A DNA stretch of 64,000 nucleotides. It comes from Bacteroidota bacterium. Lineage in GTDB: Bacteria; Bacteroidota; Bacteroidia; B-17B0; Aurantibacillaceae. The DNA lies in NCBI GenBank assembly GCA_025362395.1, contig JANYGK010000009.1:1-64000 (forward strand), given 5' to 3'. Below the pieces are notes generated by a model. The model saw nothing but the letters and a program-made list of their open reading frames with translations. It was not told the DNA's origin and made no database searches. A program made the position numbers and the translations under genes. Below are positions 22,762 through 38,775 of the stretch, piece after piece (positions within the stretch are counted from its first letter, which is position 1; every line of letters begins with the position of its first letter).

Positions 22762-24996
22762 ATGAAGTATTCATTTACATTAACTTTATTTTTACTTTTC
22801 AGCTTTCATGTTTCTTTTTCGCAGGATTGGACACTCCCTTTTTCGAGCCGTATTGAAAAAAACGGTAAAAAGCTCCAAGGTGCCATGGTTACCCTAATGC
22901 AGGGCGGTAAACAAGTACAGCAAACCATGACGGGCGACGACGGCGCTTTTAAATTTGAGATTCCCCCTAACGGCGATTATACCATTATTGTTACCAAGAC
23001 AGGACATTGCACTAAAAAATTTCAAGTGTCTACACGAGGCGTTCCCGCCGATAAAACAAAAGATGCCTTTAAAGGCTTTAATATTGAAGCGATCAGTTTA
23101 TTTGAACCTTTACCCGGAATAGACTATTCTGTTTTAAATCAACCACTTGTGAAGGTTAATTATAATACGACTACCGATAATTTTGATTATGACGAAGCAT
23201 ACAGTAATCAAATGCTGAATGCCTTGGACAGGCTACGTCAGCTTGAAAAAGATGCCCAAAATAAACAAAAGGAATTAGAATTTAATTATCAAACGGCTAT
23301 TAAAACAGCAGATAAAGCATTTCAAAAAAAAGACTGGGTAACTGCTAAAGCGTCTTATGGCCAAGCTATACAATTAAAGCCTACTGAAAATTATCCAAAA
23401 GATCAATTAGCTCAAATTGATGTTATAATTAAGGATCAGGAAGCTTTAAATAAAAAAGCGGAATCAGACAAAGCAGCGACCAATAAAGCCGCGGCAGACA
23501 AAGCAGCAGCAGACAAGGCAGCGGCAGACAAGGCAGCGGCAGACAAAGCAGCGGCAGATAAATTAGCATTAGAAAAAGCCAACTTAGCAAAAGCAGCAGC
23601 GGATAAGCTAGCAGCAGATAAAGCAGCAGCCGATAAAGCGGCGGCAGATAAGATGGCAGCGGATAAGCTAGCAGCAGACAAAGCAGCAGCAGATAAATTA
23701 GCATTAGAAAAAGCCAACGCAGCAAAAGCAGCCGCAGATAAAGCAGCGGCAGACAAAGCAGCAGCAGATAAAGCAGCGGCAGATAAGGTGGCAGCAGATA
23801 AATTAGCAGCGGATAAGCTAGCAGCAGATAAAGCAGCTGCAGATAAATTAGCACTAGAAAAAGCAAACGCAGCAAAAGCAGCAGCAGATAAATTAGCAGC
23901 AGACAAAGCGGCGGCAGATAAGTTAGCATTAGAAAAAGCCAACGCAGCAAAAGCAGCTGCAGATAAGGTGGCAGCAGACAAAGTAGTGGCTGATAAATTA
24001 GCATTAGAAAAAGCCAACGCAGCAAAAGCAGCCGCAGATAAGGTGGCAGCAGAGAAAGCAGCAGCAGACAAAGCAGCGGCAGATAAATTAGCATTAGAAA
24101 AAGCCAACTCAGCAAAAGCAGCTGCCGATAAAGCAGCGGCAGATAAGGCGGCAGCAGATAAGGCGGCAGCAGATAAGGTGGCAGCCGATAAAGCCGCAGC
24201 AGATAAAGCATCAGCAGATAAGTTAGTATTAGAAAAAGCCAACGCAGCAAAAGCAGCAGCCGATAAAGCAGCGGCAGATAAGGCGGCAGCAGATAAGGTG
24301 GCATTAGAAAAAGCAACAGCAGACAAAACAGCAGCAGACAAAGCAGCGGCAGATAAGGCGGCAGCAGATAAGGTGGCAGCAGATAAAATAACAGCGGATA
24401 AAGCAGCAGCCGATAAAGCAGCGGGTGCAAAAGCAGCAGCTGATAAATTAGCCCTCGAAAAAACAAACGCACAAAAATCGGCAGCGGATAAAGCTGCTGC
24501 CGAAAAAGCAGAGGCAGATAGATTAACCGCAGAAAAGTCTGCAGCCGATAAAGCCGCCGCTGAAAAAGCGAAACATTCTATACCTCCGGCATTAGGTGTT
24601 GACAGATACAAAGAAGCCATTACAAAAGCAGACGGCTTATTTAAAATGAAACGGTATAAAGAAGCAAAAACATCGTATGAAGAGGCGCTTATTGTAAAAG
24701 CAAGCGACCCGTATGCAAAAGGGAAATTAGTGGAAATTGAAAAGCTGTTAAATTCAGATACAGCTACGGCAGCCGATGTAGATGCTAAAACCAAAGCGTT
24801 ATTAGCAAAATATCCTCCCGGGGTTACAGAAGAAACAATTAACGGTACAGGAGTGGTTATTATTCAACGCGTGGTAGTAAAAGAAACCGCTGCTTATGTA
24901 TACCAAAAGAAAATTTTTAGCTGGGGTGGTATTTCTTATTTCAGAGACCTGACACCCGTAACCGAATCTACTTTTGAACAAGAAACAAAACCATAA
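22762..24996 (+). CDS. Secreted protein with long alanine/lysine pentapeptide-repeat helix
   Basis: The 744-residue protein has a signal peptide (about 1-20, ending VSFSQ), a carboxypeptidase-regulatory-like beta domain (about 25-95: GKKLQGAMVTLMQGGK, GAFKFEIPPNGDYTIIVTKT), and a TPR-like unit (about 175-215). Residues 231-604 are about 75 pentads of the form KxAxD (KAAAD, KLALE, KANAA), then comes a second TPR-like unit (614-660) and a beta-rich C-terminus. The pentad region resembles TolA domain II and should form a long rigid helix in the periplasm. It lies three bases before a methyltransferase gene. Family role unknown; repeat number may vary between strains. Confidence 0.88.
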   Translation: MKYSFTLTLFLLFSFHVSFSQDWTLPFSSRIEKNGKKLQGAMVTLMQGGKQVQQTMTGDDGAFKFEIPPNGDYTIIVTKTGHCTKKFQVSTRGVPADKTKDAFKGFNIEAISLFEPLPGIDYSVLNQPLVKVNYNTTTDNFDYDEAYSNQMLNALDRLRQLEKDAQNKQKELEFNYQTAIKTADKAFQKKDWVTAKASYGQAIQLKPTENYPKDQLAQIDVIIKDQEALNKKAESDKAATNKAAADKAAADKAAADKAAADKAAADKLALEKANLAKAAADKLAADKAAADKAAADKMAADKLAADKAAADKLALEKANAAKAAADKAAADKAAADKAAADKVAADKLAADKLAADKAAADKLALEKANAAKAAADKLAADKAAADKLALEKANAAKAAADKVAADKVVADKLALEKANAAKAAADKVAAEKAAADKAAADKLALEKANSAKAAADKAAADKAAADKAAADKVAADKAAADKASADKLVLEKANAAKAAADKAAADKAAADKVALEKATADKTAADKAAADKAAADKVAADKITADKAAADKAAGAKAAADKLALEKTNAQKSAADKAAAEKAEADRLTAEKSAADKAAAEKAKHSIPPALGVDRYKEAITKADGLFKMKRYKEAKTSYEEALIVKASDPYAKGKLVEIEKLLNSDTATAADVDAKTKALLAKYPPGVTEETINGTGVVIIQRVVVKETAAYVYQKKIFSWGGISYFRDLTPVTESTFEQETKP
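23452..24573 (+). repeat. 15-base coding repeat (pentapeptide KAAAD) tract
   Basis: About 75 near-identical 15-base units encode the pentads of the 22762 protein. Larger units of three pentads (KLALE-KANAA-KAAAD) recur at least seven times, showing expansion by duplication of higher-order blocks. The lack of stop codons in several other frames is a consequence of this tract. Confidence 0.9.
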
Positions 24997-30904: not shown

Positions 30905-33900
30905 ATGAAGAAAATTTACATTATTCTTTTCTGTCTTTTCGCGTTTAATTATATGCAGTCGCAATCCGATAACTGTTCCGGTGCTGTTGCCCTTACCATT
31001 GGCGGTTGCGTTACCGGAAATCCCGGCGCTACTCAAAACCTGCCCGGTTGCGTAGGGAATGCCGATGATGATGCCTGGTATAAATTTACGGCAACCAATA
31101 CGTCTCATTTAATTACCGTTACCGGGTCATCTGGCTATGATGCGGTTATACAGCTCATGTCGGGCGTCTGCACAAGCTTATCGTCTTTAAACTGTGTTGA
31201 TAATACTTTAACAGGGCAGGCAGAAACTATTAATGCTACAGGCTTAACAGTGGGAGTTACCTACTATTTACGAATTTATGATTACTATACCGGAACAAGC
31301 GCGGGTACCTTTACCACCTGTGTTACCTTACCGCCCCCGGCTCCCGGAAATGATAATTGCGCAGGTGCGAAAGTATTAACCGTAAACTCATCTTGTGTTA
31401 ATACTTCTACCACCTCTTACGGTGCCACACAGTCAACAATAGCGGGTTGTTCAGGTACCGCCGATGATGATGTGTGGTTTATGTTTACCGCTAATAACTA
31501 TACACAAACCATTCAGGTTGCAGGTTCTTCAGGTATGGATGCGGTAGTTGAATTATTTTCGGGAACTTGCGGATCGTTATCTTCTATTACCTGTGAGGAT
31601 GCGACGTTTACAGGCGGCACCGAAACCATTAATGCAACCGGTTTAGCACCCGGTACCACATATTATGTAAGGGTATATGATTATTATTCAACCGGTGGAT
31701 ATCCCTTTACTGTCTGTATTACCGGTGCTTCTATTATAGCAGGCACTCAACCAAATGATGAGCCTTGTAATGCGGTGCAGTTTCCGGCTGTAACGGCTGA
31801 TTGTAATTACCTTACTTTTTCAAATGTGGGCGCTACGCAAACTACCTCTGCCCCTACTCCAACCAATTGCTTAGGCGGAACAGGCGGCTTTACGGCAAGC
31901 TCAAAAGATGTATGGTTTAAAATAACAGTGCCCGCGAGCGGAAATTTGTGTATAACGCCTCAGCCTAATTTAACAGGTGCTGTTATTACAGACGGCGCCA
32001 TGGCACTTTACAGCGGGGCTTGCGGAAGCCTTTCGGAAATAGCCTGTTCGGATGACGGTGACGGTACAGGCGGAGCTTACGATTACCCGGGCTCCGCAAA
32101 TGATTTTCTTCCTTATATTAACCAAACGGGCTTAACACCCGGTTCAACCGTATACCTGCGGTATTGGGGATGGGGAAGCGCGAGCGGCTCTTTCGGCTTA
32201 TGCGTTCAGGCTCCCACAAACGATGCCTGCGCTAATGCTCTTTACATATGTGACCTCAACGGCTATTCTGCTTCTACAAGTCCCGCTTACACTCCCGACA
32301 GACCGGGTACAGGTGCGGGACAAATGTACGCGAACAATGAAACTCCCGCAGGCGTTAATCAACCCGACGGTACCAATACAGGCGGGCCTTTCGGCTATTA
32401 CCCACCCACCAATATTGCAGGGCCTTATTCTTCGCCGGTTATTAATGTTAATATTGAAAACAATTCATGGATCCGTTTTACGGCGGGCAGTGTTACGGCC
32501 AATTTAAGAGTGACAGTTGGTAACTGCTGGGTGGGCGGTTATCCGAGCGGAGGTATCCAGATGCAGATCTTTTCGGGAAGTAACTGTAATAACTTTGTAC
32601 CCGTATCAAGCTTTAAAGAAGGATCAAATACGTTTACCGTAACGGCCGGCGGCTTAACGGTTGGTAATGATTATTATTTAATGGTTGACGGTTACGCAAA
32701 GGATATTTGTAATTATACGATACAGGTATTGGACGGTGTAGCGCTTCCTGAAATTACTGCCGTTCCGGACAGTGTTTGCCCGGGCCAATATTCTTTATTA
32801 ACCGCGCCTTTAGGCGCAACAGGTTATACCTGGTATCCAAGCGGCGCTGTACCGGTTACGACACGTACTATTTCAGTCAGCCCCGGTGCAACACAAACTT
32901 ATACCTGTATAGCAGCAGGCGTTTGCGGACAAAGACAAACGCTTACGAAAACCGTTTATGTTAAAACGGTTCCTACTGTAGCTATTAATTCGGGTGCTGC
33001 TATTACTAACTGCGGTACTCAAACGATTACACTTACGGGCAGCGGCGCAAGTACCTATACCTGGAGCACGGGCAATACAACAGGCTCTTTTACAACGGCA
33101 CCCGTCACCAGCTCTACCTATTCGGTAATTGGTAAAGCCGCCAATGGTTGCACCAATACTGCCGTTACCAACGTTACGGTTAACCCTATCCCCAACATAA
33201 CCATTGCGGGAACCAATACCATTTGTTCGGGACAAGCTACTGCATTAACGGCAAGCGGAGGCGTAAGCTACACCTGGACTCCCGGTGGTACCGTAGCCTC
33301 AAGCATCACCGTTAATCCTACAACCACTACGATTTACAATGTTACAGGCAGCAATGCTTTCGGTTGCACAAAAACGGTTTCGGTACAGGTAGTGGTTAAC
33401 GCTTTACCTACTGTTACTTCAAGCAGTACTACTATATGCCTTGGCAACACCGGTGTTATTACAGCCGGCGGCGCATCCACTTATACGTGGAATACAACTG
33501 CAACTACGGCAAGTATTTCCGTAAGTCCTGCGGTTACTACAACCTATACGGTTACGGGAACCAATACTAATGGTTGCACCAATACAGCCGTGGGACAAGT
33601 TTCTGTTAATGCTTTACCGGTTATTCAAATAAATTCAGGAAATCCCGTAGCTATTTGTAATACACAAACCGTTACGTTAACGGGAAGCGGTGGTATTACT
33701 TATACGTGGAGCACAAGCTCTAATTCAGGAAACATAAACGTATCCCCTACTTCCAACACAACTTATACTTTAACGGGTACAGCAGCAACAGGCTGTATCA
33801 ATACAGCGGTAACAACCGTTACGGTAAATGCTTTACCCGCTATTACGATTACGGGCGCAGGCTCTGTTTGTAACGGAAAAAGCATTGTGCTTACAGGCAA

Positions 33901-36900
33901 CGGCGGTACTACATATACATGGGTGCCGGGGGGCGCTGCTACAAGCATTACCGTAAGCCCCGCTACAAATACTGCTTATACTGTAACAGGCACGGGCTCT
34001 AACGGTTGCAGCTCAAACGCTGTAACTACTATAACGGTTAATGCACTTCCTGCCATTTCAGTTAACAATGCAAATATTTGTAACGGAAGCACGGCCGTAC
34101 TAACGGCAAGCGGTGCATCCACCTCTTATTTATGGAACACGGGGGCAAGCGGTAATACTATTTCCCCAAATCCCGCCTCCAACACTAACTACACAGTAAC
34201 AGGTACTGCGGTTAACGGCTGTACCAATGTCGCTGTAGCACAGGTTACGGTTACGGCATTACCTGTTATTACGGTTCCTTCGGCAACTATATGTCAAAAT
34301 TCTACTCAGGTATTAACGGCAAGCGGCGCTAATACTTATACTTGGTCTACCACACAAAACGGTACCTCTATTTCGGTTACACCAACAGTTACCGCTACAT
34401 ATACAGTAATAGGAACAGCGGTAAGCACCTGTACCAATAGTGCAACGGCAATGGTAACGGTTAACGCCTTACCGCAGCTTATTTCTACACCGAGCGTATC
34501 ACCGAGTAACTGTAGCGCTGCAACAGGTTCTATTACCAATGTAAGCTTAAGCGGAACCCCTGCCCTAACTTACACATGGACTAACGGCGCAAGTGTTAAT
34601 GTGGGCTCATCGCCAAATTTATTAAATCAACCCGCGGGCACTTATAACTTGCAGGTAAAAGACGGAAACGGCTGTTCTAATAACTTTGGGCCTTACAGCA
34701 TTAGTAACCCGGGTGCGCCCGCGGCACCAACGGCAAGCGCTACGGCCGCTTCCATTTGTACGGGACAAACCATCAGTTTGCATGCAAGCAGCCCTTCAGG
34801 AGGAGCATATAGCTGGTCGGGGCCGAATAGTTTTACTGCCACTGCTCAAAATCCTACTTTAGCCGGGGCAACACCGGCTATGGGTGGCGTATATTCCGTA
34901 TTTATGACAGCCGCGGGATGCAGCGGGCCCGCAACCAATGTAACCGTTACTGTTAATGCGTTACCGATACCCGGCGCGTCCTCTTCACAAACAGTTTATT
35001 GCGCGGGAAACCTCATTAATTTATTTGCTTCATCAGCTACAACCTATACTTGGAGCGGGCCCGGAAGTTTCGCTTCTAACAACCAGAACCCAAGCATTAC
35101 AAGTGCTTCGGTAGCATCGGCCGGTGTTTATACCTTACAGGTTACTAATGCGAGCGGTTGTTCAGGTGTTACAACAGTAAGCATAGGCATAAACGCAAAC
35201 CCCGCAGCCACTGCCACGGCAAATCCCGGTGCTATTTGCGCGGGACAAATCATTAACTTAAATGCGGGCGGCGGCACAGGTTACAGTTGGACAGGCCCTA
35301 ACGGGTATTCAAATTCCACTCAATCTCCAAATATTACCAATGCGGGTACTGTAACCGCCGGCAGCTATACAGTGGTAGTTACGGGAGCAAATACCTGCAC
35401 GGCATCAGCCATTACAACAGTAAGCATTAATGCACTTCCTACATTTACATCAACCGTTAACGCTGCTAATATTTGTAACGGTGCTACAATTCAATTCAGC
35501 GCGGGTTCAGCGGCTAATACGTATTCATGGACGGGCCCTGCAACCTTTAGCGTTAATACTAATGCCGCGCCGTTTATTAACGGTGCAGGTGTTACAAACT
35601 CCGGAACCTATACTGTTAACGCTTCTAACGGTTCGTGTATTGCTTCTCAAACTGTTGCGGTTAACGTATACAGCCCCGTTACTTTAACAGCTACGGCCAC
35701 TAATACTGCTATATGCCTTGGTACTTCATTACAGTTATTGGGTAATGGAGGCGGAACCTATCAATGGACCGGCCCGGGAGGTTTTTCTTCCATAAGCCAA
35801 AGCCCGCAGATAAACAATACCGCTTTAACGGCTTCGGGAACATATACTTTATCTATTATGGATGGTAATAATTGCCCGGGTACTACTACGCTGGCTATTT
35901 TAATACATGCTAACCCTACGGCTACCGCCGGCGCAAGCCCAAATGTTATTTGCGTAGGCAATACCATTAATTTAAACGCGAGTGGTGGCACAACCTACAG
36001 TTGGTCGGGGCCTAACGGCTTTTCGAGCAGCACGCAAAACCCTTCGGTAACGAATGCAGGCTCTACTAATGTGGGTGATTATACGGTTACGGTAACCGAC
36101 GGTAATTTATGTTCGAGCACTGCCATTGCTTCAGTAAGCGTGGTAACACTTCCTACTTTTACCATGAGCACTAATGCTGCTGATATTTGTTTTGGCGGTA
36201 CCATTCAATTTAATGCAGGCCCTAATCCTTACACCTATTCATGGGCAGGTCCTAATTCGTATACAGTTGCCAACGACCCGAACCCAAGCATTCCTAACAG
36301 TACACCGCTTAATTCGGGAACATACACAGTAACCTCAGCGGCAGGTTCCTGTTCATATTCACAAACACTAAGTGTAAATGTATATCCTCAAATTTTAGTA
36401 AATGCTTCGGCGGCGAGTTATGTATTATGTTCAGGCACCACTGCTAACTTAACCGGTACAGGCGGCGGATTGTATGCGTGGGCAGGTCCGAATAATTTTT
36501 CGAATACGACTCAAAACCCACAAATAACAAACGTGCAAACTCTTGCATCCGGTATTTACACCCTAACGGTTACTGACCCTACTACCAATTGTTTGGCAAG
36601 TGATACCGTTGTGTTAACAGTAAGTCCTGCTCCTACCCTGTTATCCACTACAGGCGATTCTACCTGCTACGGCCAACAGTTAAAACTCAATGCTAACTTT
36701 GGCAGCGGTGTTACCGTAAACTGGTACAGTGACGCGGCTTTAACACAATTGGTTCAGGCTAATTCGGGCACTTACCAAACCACACCACCGGCTAACGGTA
36801 CGTATACTTACTATGTACAAGGTTCTATAGGTAGTTGTAAAAGTGCAGCATCTGCCGTTACGGGGCAGTTTTATAATATACACGCTATTGCTTCCGCCGA

Positions 36901-37408
36901 CGTGTATTCAGGAGCTGTGCCGCTGGTTGTTAACTTTACAGGCAGCAACAGCACAGGAGTTACGGCAACCGATAATTTTAACTGGGCCTTTGGCGATAAT
37001 ACAGGTTCAACTGTTATAAACCCTAATCATATTTTTAATACAGAAGCTACCTATACAGTTATTTTAACGGTAACGGATGCTGAAAGCGGCTGTATGGATA
37101 CTGCTGCCGTTATTATTAAAGTTGAGGATGACCTTACCGTTATTGTGCCCAATGTATTTACGCCTAACGGTGATGGTGTAAATGACCAGTTCCATATAAA
37201 CATAAAAGGCGCTAAAACCGCGGAAGGATTTATTTACAACCGTTGGGGACAATTGTTGTTTAGCTGGGATGCCCTTAACGCCTCATGGGACGGCATTGCG
37301 GCCGACGGAAATAAATGCCCCGATGCTACTTACTTTTATTTAATTAAGGTAGTGGATAAAAAAGACAAGGAACACGTATTCCCCGGATATGCGCTTATTA
37401 TAAGGTAG
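30905..37408 (+). CDS. Giant T9SS type B adhesin with Ig-like repeats, PKD domain and gliding-type C-terminus
   Basis: The 2167-residue protein has a signal peptide (1-20, ending MQSQ). Three N-terminal beta domains (about 20-145, 145-275, 280-440) share DDAWYKFTA-like and TYYLRIYDYY-like segments. About sixteen 70-90-residue Ig-like repeats follow, with junction words like TVNALP and core segments like TYTWSTG. A PKD domain (about 1985-2075) holds FNWAFGDNTGSTV. The C-terminal domain VFTPNGDGVNDQFHI to CPDATYFYLIKV is the CHU_C gliding-motility-associated type B signal. It should be exported by T9SS and held at the surface by a PorP/SprF protein. Possible role in adhesion or gliding. No enzyme domain seen. 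Confidence 0.95.
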   Translation: MKKIYIILFCLFAFNYMQSQSDNCSGAVALTIGGCVTGNPGATQNLPGCVGNADDDAWYKFTATNTSHLITVTGSSGYDAVIQLMSGVCTSLSSLNCVDNTLTGQAETINATGLTVGVTYYLRIYDYYTGTSAGTFTTCVTLPPPAPGNDNCAGAKVLTVNSSCVNTSTTSYGATQSTIAGCSGTADDDVWFMFTANNYTQTIQVAGSSGMDAVVELFSGTCGSLSSITCEDATFTGGTETINATGLAPGTTYYVRVYDYYSTGGYPFTVCITGASIIAGTQPNDEPCNAVQFPAVTADCNYLTFSNVGATQTTSAPTPTNCLGGTGGFTASSKDVWFKITVPASGNLCITPQPNLTGAVITDGAMALYSGACGSLSEIACSDDGDGTGGAYDYPGSANDFLPYINQTGLTPGSTVYLRYWGWGSASGSFGLCVQAPTNDACANALYICDLNGYSASTSPAYTPDRPGTGAGQMYANNETPAGVNQPDGTNTGGPFGYYPPTNIAGPYSSPVINVNIENNSWIRFTAGSVTANLRVTVGNCWVGGYPSGGIQMQIFSGSNCNNFVPVSSFKEGSNTFTVTAGGLTVGNDYYLMVDGYAKDICNYTIQVLDGVALPEITAVPDSVCPGQYSLLTAPLGATGYTWYPSGAVPVTTRTISVSPGATQTYTCIAAGVCGQRQTLTKTVYVKTVPTVAINSGAAITNCGTQTITLTGSGASTYTWSTGNTTGSFTTAPVTSSTYSVIGKAANGCTNTAVTNVTVNPIPNITIAGTNTICSGQATALTASGGVSYTWTPGGTVASSITVNPTTTTIYNVTGSNAFGCTKTVSVQVVVNALPTVTSSSTTICLGNTGVITAGGASTYTWNTTATTASISVSPAVTTTYTVTGTNTNGCTNTAVGQVSVNALPVIQINSGNPVAICNTQTVTLTGSGGITYTWSTSSNSGNINVSPTSNTTYTLTGTAATGCINTAVTTVTVNALPAITITGAGSVCNGKSIVLTGNGGTTYTWVPGGAATSITVSPATNTAYTVTGTGSNGCSSNAVTTITVNALPAISVNNANICNGSTAVLTASGASTSYLWNTGASGNTISPNPASNTNYTVTGTAVNGCTNVAVAQVTVTALPVITVPSATICQNSTQVLTASGANTYTWSTTQNGTSISVTPTVTATYTVIGTAVSTCTNSATAMVTVNALPQLISTPSVSPSNCSAATGSITNVSLSGTPALTYTWTNGASVNVGSSPNLLNQPAGTYNLQVKDGNGCSNNFGPYSISNPGAPAAPTASATAASICTGQTISLHASSPSGGAYSWSGPNSFTATAQNPTLAGATPAMGGVYSVFMTAAGCSGPATNVTVTVNALPIPGASSSQTVYCAGNLINLFASSATTYTWSGPGSFASNNQNPSITSASVASAGVYTLQVTNASGCSGVTTVSIGINANPAATATANPGAICAGQIINLNAGGGTGYSWTGPNGYSNSTQSPNITNAGTVTAGSYTVVVTGANTCTASAITTVSINALPTFTSTVNAANICNGATIQFSAGSAANTYSWTGPATFSVNTNAAPFINGAGVTNSGTYTVNASNGSCIASQTVAVNVYSPVTLTATATNTAICLGTSLQLLGNGGGTYQWTGPGGFSSISQSPQINNTALTASGTYTLSIMDGNNCPGTTTLAILIHANPTATAGASPNVICVGNTINLNASGGTTYSWSGPNGFSSSTQNPSVTNAGSTNVGDYTVTVTDGNLCSSTAIASVSVVTLPTFTMSTNAADICFGGTIQFNAGPNPYTYSWAGPNSYTVANDPNPSIPNSTPLNSGTYTVTSAAGSCSYSQTLSVNVYPQILVNASAASYVLCSGTTANLTGTGGGLYAWAGPNNFSNTTQNPQITNVQTLASGIYTLTVTDPTTNCLASDTVVLTVSPAPTLLSTTGDSTCYGQQLKLNANFGSGVTVNWYSDAALTQLVQANSGTYQTTPPANGTYTYYVQGSIGSCKSAASAVTGQFYNIHAIASADVYSGAVPLVVNFTGSNSTGVTATDNFNWAFGDNTGSTVINPNHIFNTEATYTVILTVTDAESGCMDTAAVIIKVEDDLTVIVPNVFTPNGDGVNDQFHINIKGAKTAEGFIYNRWGQLLFSWDALNASWDGIAADGNKCPDATYFYLIKVVDKKDKEHVFPGYALIIR

Positions 37409-37496: not shown

Positions 37497-37937
37497 AAGG
37501 CGCGCATTAAGTGAATTAATACGGCTACTCCGGCTTGGAGCGGGTCCATTAAACGGTAAAATGTGGGTACCGGGTGACTTAGTGCGAGCGTTGAGTCATT
37601 TCGTGCGCCCGTTGAACCGGTGAGTGCGAGCGCTGAGTCATTTCGTGCGGCCGTTAGCCGGCAGAGTGCGAGCGTTGGAACATTCCGTGCGCCCGTTGAA
37701 CCGGTGAGTGTGAGCGCTGAGTCATTTCGTGCGGCCGTTAGCCGGCAGAGTGCGAGCGTTGGAGCATTTCGTGTACGCGCTGAACCGGTAAGTGCAAGCG
37801 TTGGGAAATTCCGTGCGACTATTGGCTGCTATAATGCGACCGTTAGCCGGCAGAGTGTGCGCACTGAGTAATTCCGTGCGACCATTCCGGGATATAATGC
37901 GCGCATTAACCGGCAGAGTGCGGGTATTAAATGAATT
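37497..37937. repeat. Array of twenty-one 21-base tandem repeats
   Basis: Counting in steps of 21 bases from 37497 to 37937 gives exactly 21 units. Most contain a core of GTGCG, two variable bases, then CG and T/C, T; e.g. GTGCGAGCGTTGAG. Two unit types alternate for much of the array (one with a TCATTT tail, one with a CCGG tail), giving a 42-base higher order. Outer units are more diverged. The array is GC-richer than its surroundings and lies between the adhesin and the convergent pyrF. Period 21 equals two turns of B-DNA. No spacers, so not CRISPR. Confidence 0.9.
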
Positions 37938-37965: not shown

Positions 37966-38775
37966 TTAAAAATATACGCTCATCTCCCCCGCAACCTTCT
38001 CTGCTTCAATACCTGCAGCATAAGCAAAGTTATCGGTATTGGAAGCGTAAATGATAGCGCGTGATGAGTTGATAAGCAACCCGACATCTTTCGTTAAGCC
38101 GTATTTACAAACTTCTGCTAAACTGCCGCCCTGAGCTCCAACGCCCGGCACCAGTAAAAAGTGATTGGGTACAATACTCCTGATATCCCTAAACATAGCA
38201 GCTTTTGTGGCCCCTACCACAAACATTAAATTTTCTTCGGTTCCCCAGGAAGCTACTTTCTCTAACACTTCTTTATACAATTGATGTCCGTTTGTTTCAA
38301 GCAACTGGAAATCGGATGAGCCTTCATTAGAGGTCAATGCCAATACAATGGCCCATTTCTTTTCAAACTGTAAAAACGGTAATACCGAATCTTTACCCAT
38401 ATAGGGCGCTACGGTAATGGCATCGGCATGCAGGCGTTTAAAAAACGCTTTGGCATACATGCTCGAGGTGTTGCCGATATCGCCGCGCTTGGCATCCGCA
38501 ATTAAAAAATGATCAGGGTAATTTTGTTTAATGTATTTTATGGTTCTTTCTAAACTGGTAATGCCGCTTAAGCCGTAAGCTTCAAAAAAAGCGGTATTTG
38601 GTTTAAAAGATACACAATGATCGGCTGTAGCATCTACTATTTGCCGGCAGAATTCAAAAATAGGATCATCTTCGCTCAATAAAAATTTAGGAATCTTCTC
38701 CACGTCAGGATCTAAGCCTACACATAAAAAAGATTTTTTAGTTTTAATTTGATGTATAAGTTCTGCGCGGGTCAT
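37966..38775 (-). CDS. pyrF: Orotidine-5'-phosphate decarboxylase
   Basis: The 269-residue protein is the longer (type 2) Pyr[18 protein letters not shown] near the N-terminus, [13 protein letters not shown], and the catalytic motif [11 protein letters not shown] (94-104) with Lys96. It makes UMP from OMP in pyrimidine synthesis, in the cytoplasm. It is followed at its 3' side by the 21-base repeat array and preceded by prfA with 158 bases between. It is convergent with the adhesin. Confidence 0.96.

Follow-up and report, generated by a model that had tools for sequence, protein, structure and literature searches.

The 21-base repeat array at positions 37497-37937 of the window, by which we mean the whole 64,000-nucleotide stretch of contig C25 that was analysed, is probably a non-coding, species-specific minisatellite that is dispersed among intergenic sites and has expanded through unequal crossing-over or slippage during replication. 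It consists of head-to-tail units outside genes, with a unit length inside the range of about 10 to 60 bases that defines an intergenic minisatellite. The same repeat was found at 2 further contig ends in the source genome, which is a draft assembly of 4.08 Mb in 118 contigs and can be assigned, presumptively, to the Bacteroidia on account of its T9SS proteins.

The array is 441 bases long and is divided into 21 in-register rows of 21 bases, with no internal indel. The units were obvious in 17 rows (37581-37937), whereas the 4 rows on the left were weak. A weight matrix built from the 17 clear units was scored over the positions of the window, and the left rows, which start at 37497, 37518, 37539, and 37560, were in phase and scored higher than 99.2% to 100% of the window positions. 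The rows flanking the array (37476 and 37938) had background scores, which gives the array sharp edges and supports the coordinates and the unit number in the initial annotation. The 441-base sequence matched itself at frequencies of 0.46, 0.56, and 0.64 at lags of 21, 42, and 84 bases, whereas dinucleotide-shuffled versions gave 0.26 (z = 9, 14, and 17), and the periods reported by TRF were 21, 42, 84, and 126 bases.

Three segments could be distinguished within the array, all described on the plus strand. The left edge (37497..37580) contains 4 degenerate units in exact 21-base register, with in-phase scores of 12.6, -2.4, 6.4, and 9.3 that fall within the top 0% to 0.8% of the window positions. 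This is followed by a homogenized core of 11 units (37581..37811), in which units of type A (AGTGCGAGCGTTGGAACATTC-like) alternate with units of type B (CGTGCGCGCGTTGAACCGGTG-like). The alternation and its 42-base higher order had been recognized previously, and here an 84-base order was also observed. The right edge (37812..37937) contains 6 increasingly diverged units that are still in register (lag-21 identity 0.48, z 5.3), one of which holds the previously noted palindrome AATGCGCGCATT at 37896-37907. As a dispersed site, AATGCGCGCATT(AA) was not enriched, with 59 matches versus 52 for the reversed controls. It was also noted that the first and last units have nearly identical spacers, ATTAAGTGAATT (37506..37517) and ATTAAATGAATT (37926-37937), which are offset from each other by 420 bases, corresponding to 20 units. 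The elevated GC content remarked upon in the initial annotation was likewise seen, with a value of 0.586 in 37580-37871, whereas the non-coding DNA that adjoins the array had 0.36 and the neighboring genes had 0.41 to 0.44.

The array is flanked by 2 convergent genes, both identified with Pfam, whose 3' ends face it from either side of the intergenic region. On the left is a plus-strand gene (30905..37408) for an adhesin-like protein of 2,167 amino acids with Ig_7, PKD, and CHU_C type IX secretion domains, and on the right is pyrF (37966..38775, minus strand), which encodes orotidine 5'-phosphate decarboxylase. Beyond pyrF are prfA and a gene for an OmpA-like protein. The pyrF and prfA genes are neighbors in most congeners for which the region has been assembled, usually together with the OmpA-like gene, and no comparable array was present in the pyrF and mutL neighborhoods of the congeners. 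A scan of the region yielded no promoter-like sites, and the sole terminator-like site was located inside the adhesin gene and scored at the level of shuffled sequences. Its intergenic location, here between two gene 3' ends, may be what has allowed the array to be tolerated. Elsewhere in the window, a separate long coding repeat with units of 15, 30, and 75 bases (KAAAD-type) was observed at 23465-24525, in a protein of 744 amino acids with a match to the HC2 histone-like family.

An open frame of 97 codons on the plus strand (37578..37871) crosses the array, part of which had been called as an ORF for 83 amino acids (37620-37871), and it reads as heptads such as SASVESF-RAPVEPV. The copy of the array on contig C76 is open in the same frame, although that GC-rich copy is free of stop codons in several frames on both strands. 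Among the single-base codon differences at homologous positions in the open frame, 17 were silent and 73 changed the amino acid. The copy on contig C9 contains an in-frame TGA codon, the window copy ends with TAA at 37869, and the 83-amino-acid ORF had no Pfam match. A protein-coding heptad repeat was ruled out by the ratio of silent to replacement differences and by the stop codon in the sister array, and it is very improbable that the array encodes a small heptad-repeat protein or represents the remnant of one. The suggestion that the heptads are a by-product of the repeat was thus borne out. A structured RNA was also rejected, since the predicted folds of the 2 strands were no better than those of shuffled sequences (MFE z +0.8 and +0.2) and an Rfam search of the array gave no match. 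The array does not resemble a CRISPR-like repeat, in that its spacers are themselves repeated rather than unique.

The distribution of the repeat was studied with a pattern of 2 adjacent cores in which up to 3 mismatches were allowed. The pattern had 27 matches in the whole genome, all but one of them inside 3 arrays, and the reversed control had none. One sister array is located at C76:1-232, after the 3' end of a gene of the T9SS type, and the other at C9:15435-15560, where it precedes a gene for a hypothetical protein of 232 amino acids. Both run into contig ends, and their lengths as assembled differ. They have 59 identical bases in common across the array edge, and this edge differs from the upstream edge of the window array. 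The 2 sister arrays represent either separate loci or alleles at a single locus; the genes on C9 were not found beside those on C76 in the congeners. Isolated cores outside the arrays occurred at the control level in this genome (14 versus 13 for the reversed controls). The initial annotation had proposed a search for the core at 21-base spacing in related genomes. The search recovered the 3 arrays in the source genome and none in 60 relatives, of which 19 are congeners, or in 394 other Bacteroidia genomes. The idea that the array is repeat-born was supported, and the repeat is not restricted to a single site in the genome. In a congener of a different species (G007), we observed an intergenic array with 22-base units and GTGTACAC-type palindromes (L188:261-620).

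Within the window array, 84-base blocks had an identity of 0.90-0.98 in the middle, and toward the right edge the identity dropped to about 0.5, which is the picture expected of slippage or unequal crossing-over. Growth by either process may have occurred in blocks of 2 to 4 units (42 or 84 bases), and recent duplications of 42 or 84 bases would have homogenized the inner block between the degenerate edges. The spread among loci may have taken place by recombination or as the cargo of a dispersed element. It is nevertheless somewhat surprising for a neutral minisatellite that none of the 21 units contains an indel, not even those that are strongly diverged. The core columns were also more conserved than the spacer columns (1.9 versus 5.0 parsimony steps per column), and the column variability in the window array agreed with that in the sister arrays (rho 0.76), which would not be predicted under purely neutral drift. 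However, the core had been delimited in view of the conservation, and the sister arrays are of common descent. The steps per column were only mildly heterogeneous, and a permutation test of core versus spacer (p = 0.0002) was not relied on because the core had been chosen post hoc. The GTGCGnnCG(T/C)T core may be under weak constraint, perhaps as a putative binding site, but this would be of secondary importance.

An alternative explanation is that a protein reads the GTGCGnnCG(T/C)T core at intervals of 2 helical turns, with all sites facing the same side of the DNA, for which a nucleoid, silencing, insulator, or partition function might be envisaged. Such a multi-site binding array would account for the lower number of changes in the core, for the agreement among arrays, and for the exact register of the degenerate edge units. 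The statement in the initial annotation that most units contain the core was too strong, since the exact core is present in 8 of the 21 window units and GTGCG in 11, but T3, G4, and T12 were invariant in all 33 clear units when the 3 arrays were pooled, which counts in favor of binding. Against binding stand the post hoc choice of the core and the mild heterogeneity among columns, the absence of the array from all congeners, the control-level number of isolated cores, and the presence of only 3 arrays, which adjoin pyrF, a gene of the T9SS type, and a gene for a hypothetical protein, respectively. The window array has no neighboring gene with a partition or nucleoid function. On balance, we consider a protein-binding array to be unlikely.

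The other tandem repeats of the source genome also bear on the question of helical phasing. In the stretches that were covered, which total about 1.34 Mb and make up 33% of the genome, we identified at least 4 further intergenic families with units of 20 to 21 bases that are unrelated in sequence, of which 2 are dispersed. The first of the dispersed families has 20-base TTCATA units (AATAAACTGCTGAATTCATA and AAACTACCGTTGCATTCATA) and was found at L308:12926-13366 (C25:116926-117366), C35:1414-1984, C36:39908-40144, and C2:1-85, with a leader common to C35 and C36 and a tail common to C25 and C35. The second, the CGAACCAAAG family, has units of about 20 bases (TATTTCGAACGAAAGAATTT) as well as a longer repeat unit of roughly 100 bases, and was found at L323:8827-9280 (C43:28827-29280) and C109:84503-85005. 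In addition, a 21-base intergenic array of unrelated sequence (AAAACATTCCCGCAGTAGCTC) at L357:11150-11430 on C95 ends just before a hairpin with a T-run, and a 20-base intergenic array is located on C66 (L371). The period was 20 or 21 bases in 9 of the 16 intergenic TRF arrays with at least 3 copies in the 1.34 Mb, a count that is biased in that several stretches had been chosen for the arrays they contain and in that L358, one of the rows, is possibly coding. The convergence of several unrelated families on periods of about 2 turns could be taken to favor a binding array. However, a 20-base unit is rotated by about one base relative to the helix with each repetition, and strict helical phasing is therefore not a general rule in this genome. 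Hence, the earlier observation that the units are in phase with the helix is arithmetically true for 21 bases, but it is not evidence of function, because 20-base units make up other dispersed arrays of this genome. The two-turn period, which is the main argument for a binding array, is weakened accordingly.

Three families, including that of the window array through its C9 copy, adjoin a common 30-base double box, TACCGGTTATGCGCTAAAAnCAACCGGTTA, of the form TACCGGTTATGCG..AAA..ACCGGTTA, in which the boxes are 21 bases apart. Within the 1.34 Mb, the double box had just 5 occurrences (L308:13398-13427, L328:1958-1987, L323:8649-8678, L013:4176-4205, and L316:6774-6803), with scores of 38 to 46, and the next best score was about 20. 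Four of the 5 adjoin arrays, namely the copy of the window repeat on C9, the 20-base TTCATA arrays on C25 and C35, and the array on C43, while the fifth (L316) is located approximately 190 bases upstream of an ExbB/MotA-type gene. Single ACCGGTTA boxes were more frequent than the reversed form (67 versus 14), but the enrichment was removed by a Markov expectation (64 observed versus 49 expected), so that only the paired box is special. In 3 of the 4 array-side cases, an intact small ORF starts 200 to 260 bases past the double box. The proteins encoded after the box on C25 and C43 are homologous (E 3e-14), and a truncated remnant of the same gene is present on C35. They belong to a family of small fn3-like proteins of about 200 amino acids (L308:13679-14269, L323:7808-8407, and L326:11910-12512), 2 members of which are encoded downstream of an array and a double box. 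The double box is possibly a regulatory site or the end of an element.

The window array belongs to one of at least 5 intergenic families with units of about 20 to 21 bases in this genome. Since 3 families adjoin the common double box, a single type of dispersed element may include them as modules, in which the units would serve as interchangeable 'bricks'. Another reading overlaps with the minisatellite explanation, according to which the array is the minisatellite module of a MITE-like element with a leader, bricks, and a tail, similar to BrickBuilt, that is mobilized in trans. The array edge common to C9 and C76, the shared leader and tail of the 20-base family, and the tail double box that also adjoins the C43 family and the copy on C9 all point in this direction, and a precedent exists in P. 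gingivalis (PMC4596501). However, no terminal inverted repeats or target-site duplication were found around the window array, where the only inverted pairs came from the array itself, as palindromic units or AT-rich matches, and no transposase was recognized nearby. The window copy also lacks the double box, and its edge differs from that on C9 and C76, so that membership in one 'element' is more doubtful for the window copy. We view the MITE-like module as a tentative possibility.

A scan of 85,000 genomes with a two-unit core yielded genuine period-21 arrays chiefly in Bacteroidales MAGs (Tannerella, Prevotellaceae, and Dysgonamonadaceae), as well as in some cyanobacteria and others. The sample codes suggest that these Bacteroidales MAGs originate from termite guts. 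The Bacteroidales arrays are those at L046, L061, L070, L081, L104, and L109 (Tannerella Im510_bin93), in G426, and at L087, L102, L105, and L108, and in G425 the two-core pattern had 79 matches versus 1 for the control. Like the window array, they have a period of 21 bases, the GTGCGnnCGTT core in the same register, an intergenic location, several arrays per genome, and a variable spacer. They differ from it in having a perfect CGTGCGCACG palindrome, about 9 to 10 units, and other spacers and flanks. There are many arrays per genome, and 2 loci have a common 100-base leader with 94% identity. The arrays, which apparently have not been named so far, hold their palindromic core while the spacer varies, which can be counted in favor of a binding array. 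They were found by searching for the core of the window array, and the recurrence of this core supports a claim of no more than chance convergence among period-21 arrays, with homology not implied. Combined with the unrelated families that converge on one period in the source genome, several of which have the double box upstream of small fn3-like genes, they raise the idea that some Bacteroidota maintain intergenic arrays for their period of 20 to 21 bases, or about 2 turns, rather than for their sequence, as architectural or regulatory modules with exchangeable sequence. We consider this idea to be speculative and rather improbable.

The minisatellite explanation was finally compared with known repeat systems. 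Direct repeats of 21 bases are typical of iterons, and the window array resembles iterons and parS-like centromere arrays in having in-register direct repeats near this length. In contrast to these systems, the array is located in a chromosomal intergenic region in a housekeeping setting (pyrF and prfA), with no replication gene and no Rep or ParB partner gene nearby. Searches of 72,556 plasmids and 50,697 phages gave no match to the repeat, and the viral contigs gave 7 matches versus 9 for the reversed pattern, which is the level expected by chance. A plasmid iteron array was rejected in that no replication initiator adjoins the array and the repeat is not in the plasmid records searched, and an origin as a plasmid- or phage-derived iteron array is hardly credible.

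As a bacterial minisatellite, the array is mainly a clear-cut case, and it illustrates that a 21-base period alone is no proof of helical phasing for a protein. The wider interest lies in the presence of several unrelated families with units of about 20 to 21 bases in one genome, some of which have a common double box, and in the multi-array Bacteroidales of termite guts. This broader pattern makes it possible to test neutral slippage products against BrickBuilt-like cargo and against DNA-architecture elements that are selected for their period and not for their sequence. Among the closest known systems is BrickBuilt in Porphyromonas gingivalis, a minisatellite-in-MITE with 23-base bricks between a leader and a tail, which is present in 19 copies with terminal inverted repeats (Klein et al. 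2015, PMC4596501). The units described here are 21 (and 20) bases long, the repeat is present in 3 copies, no terminal inverted repeats were found, and the window copy lacks a common leader or tail, whereas the C9 and C76 copies share one edge and the C9 copy has the double-box tail. Because the window copy has neither the box nor bounding inverted repeats, it was not classified as BrickBuilt. The 2 systems nevertheless resemble each other in that both consist of tandem repeats of about 20 bases at several intergenic loci in one Bacteroidota genome (here 3 arrays) with a narrow host range, and copies of other families in the source genome have a common leader or tail, as in BrickBuilt.
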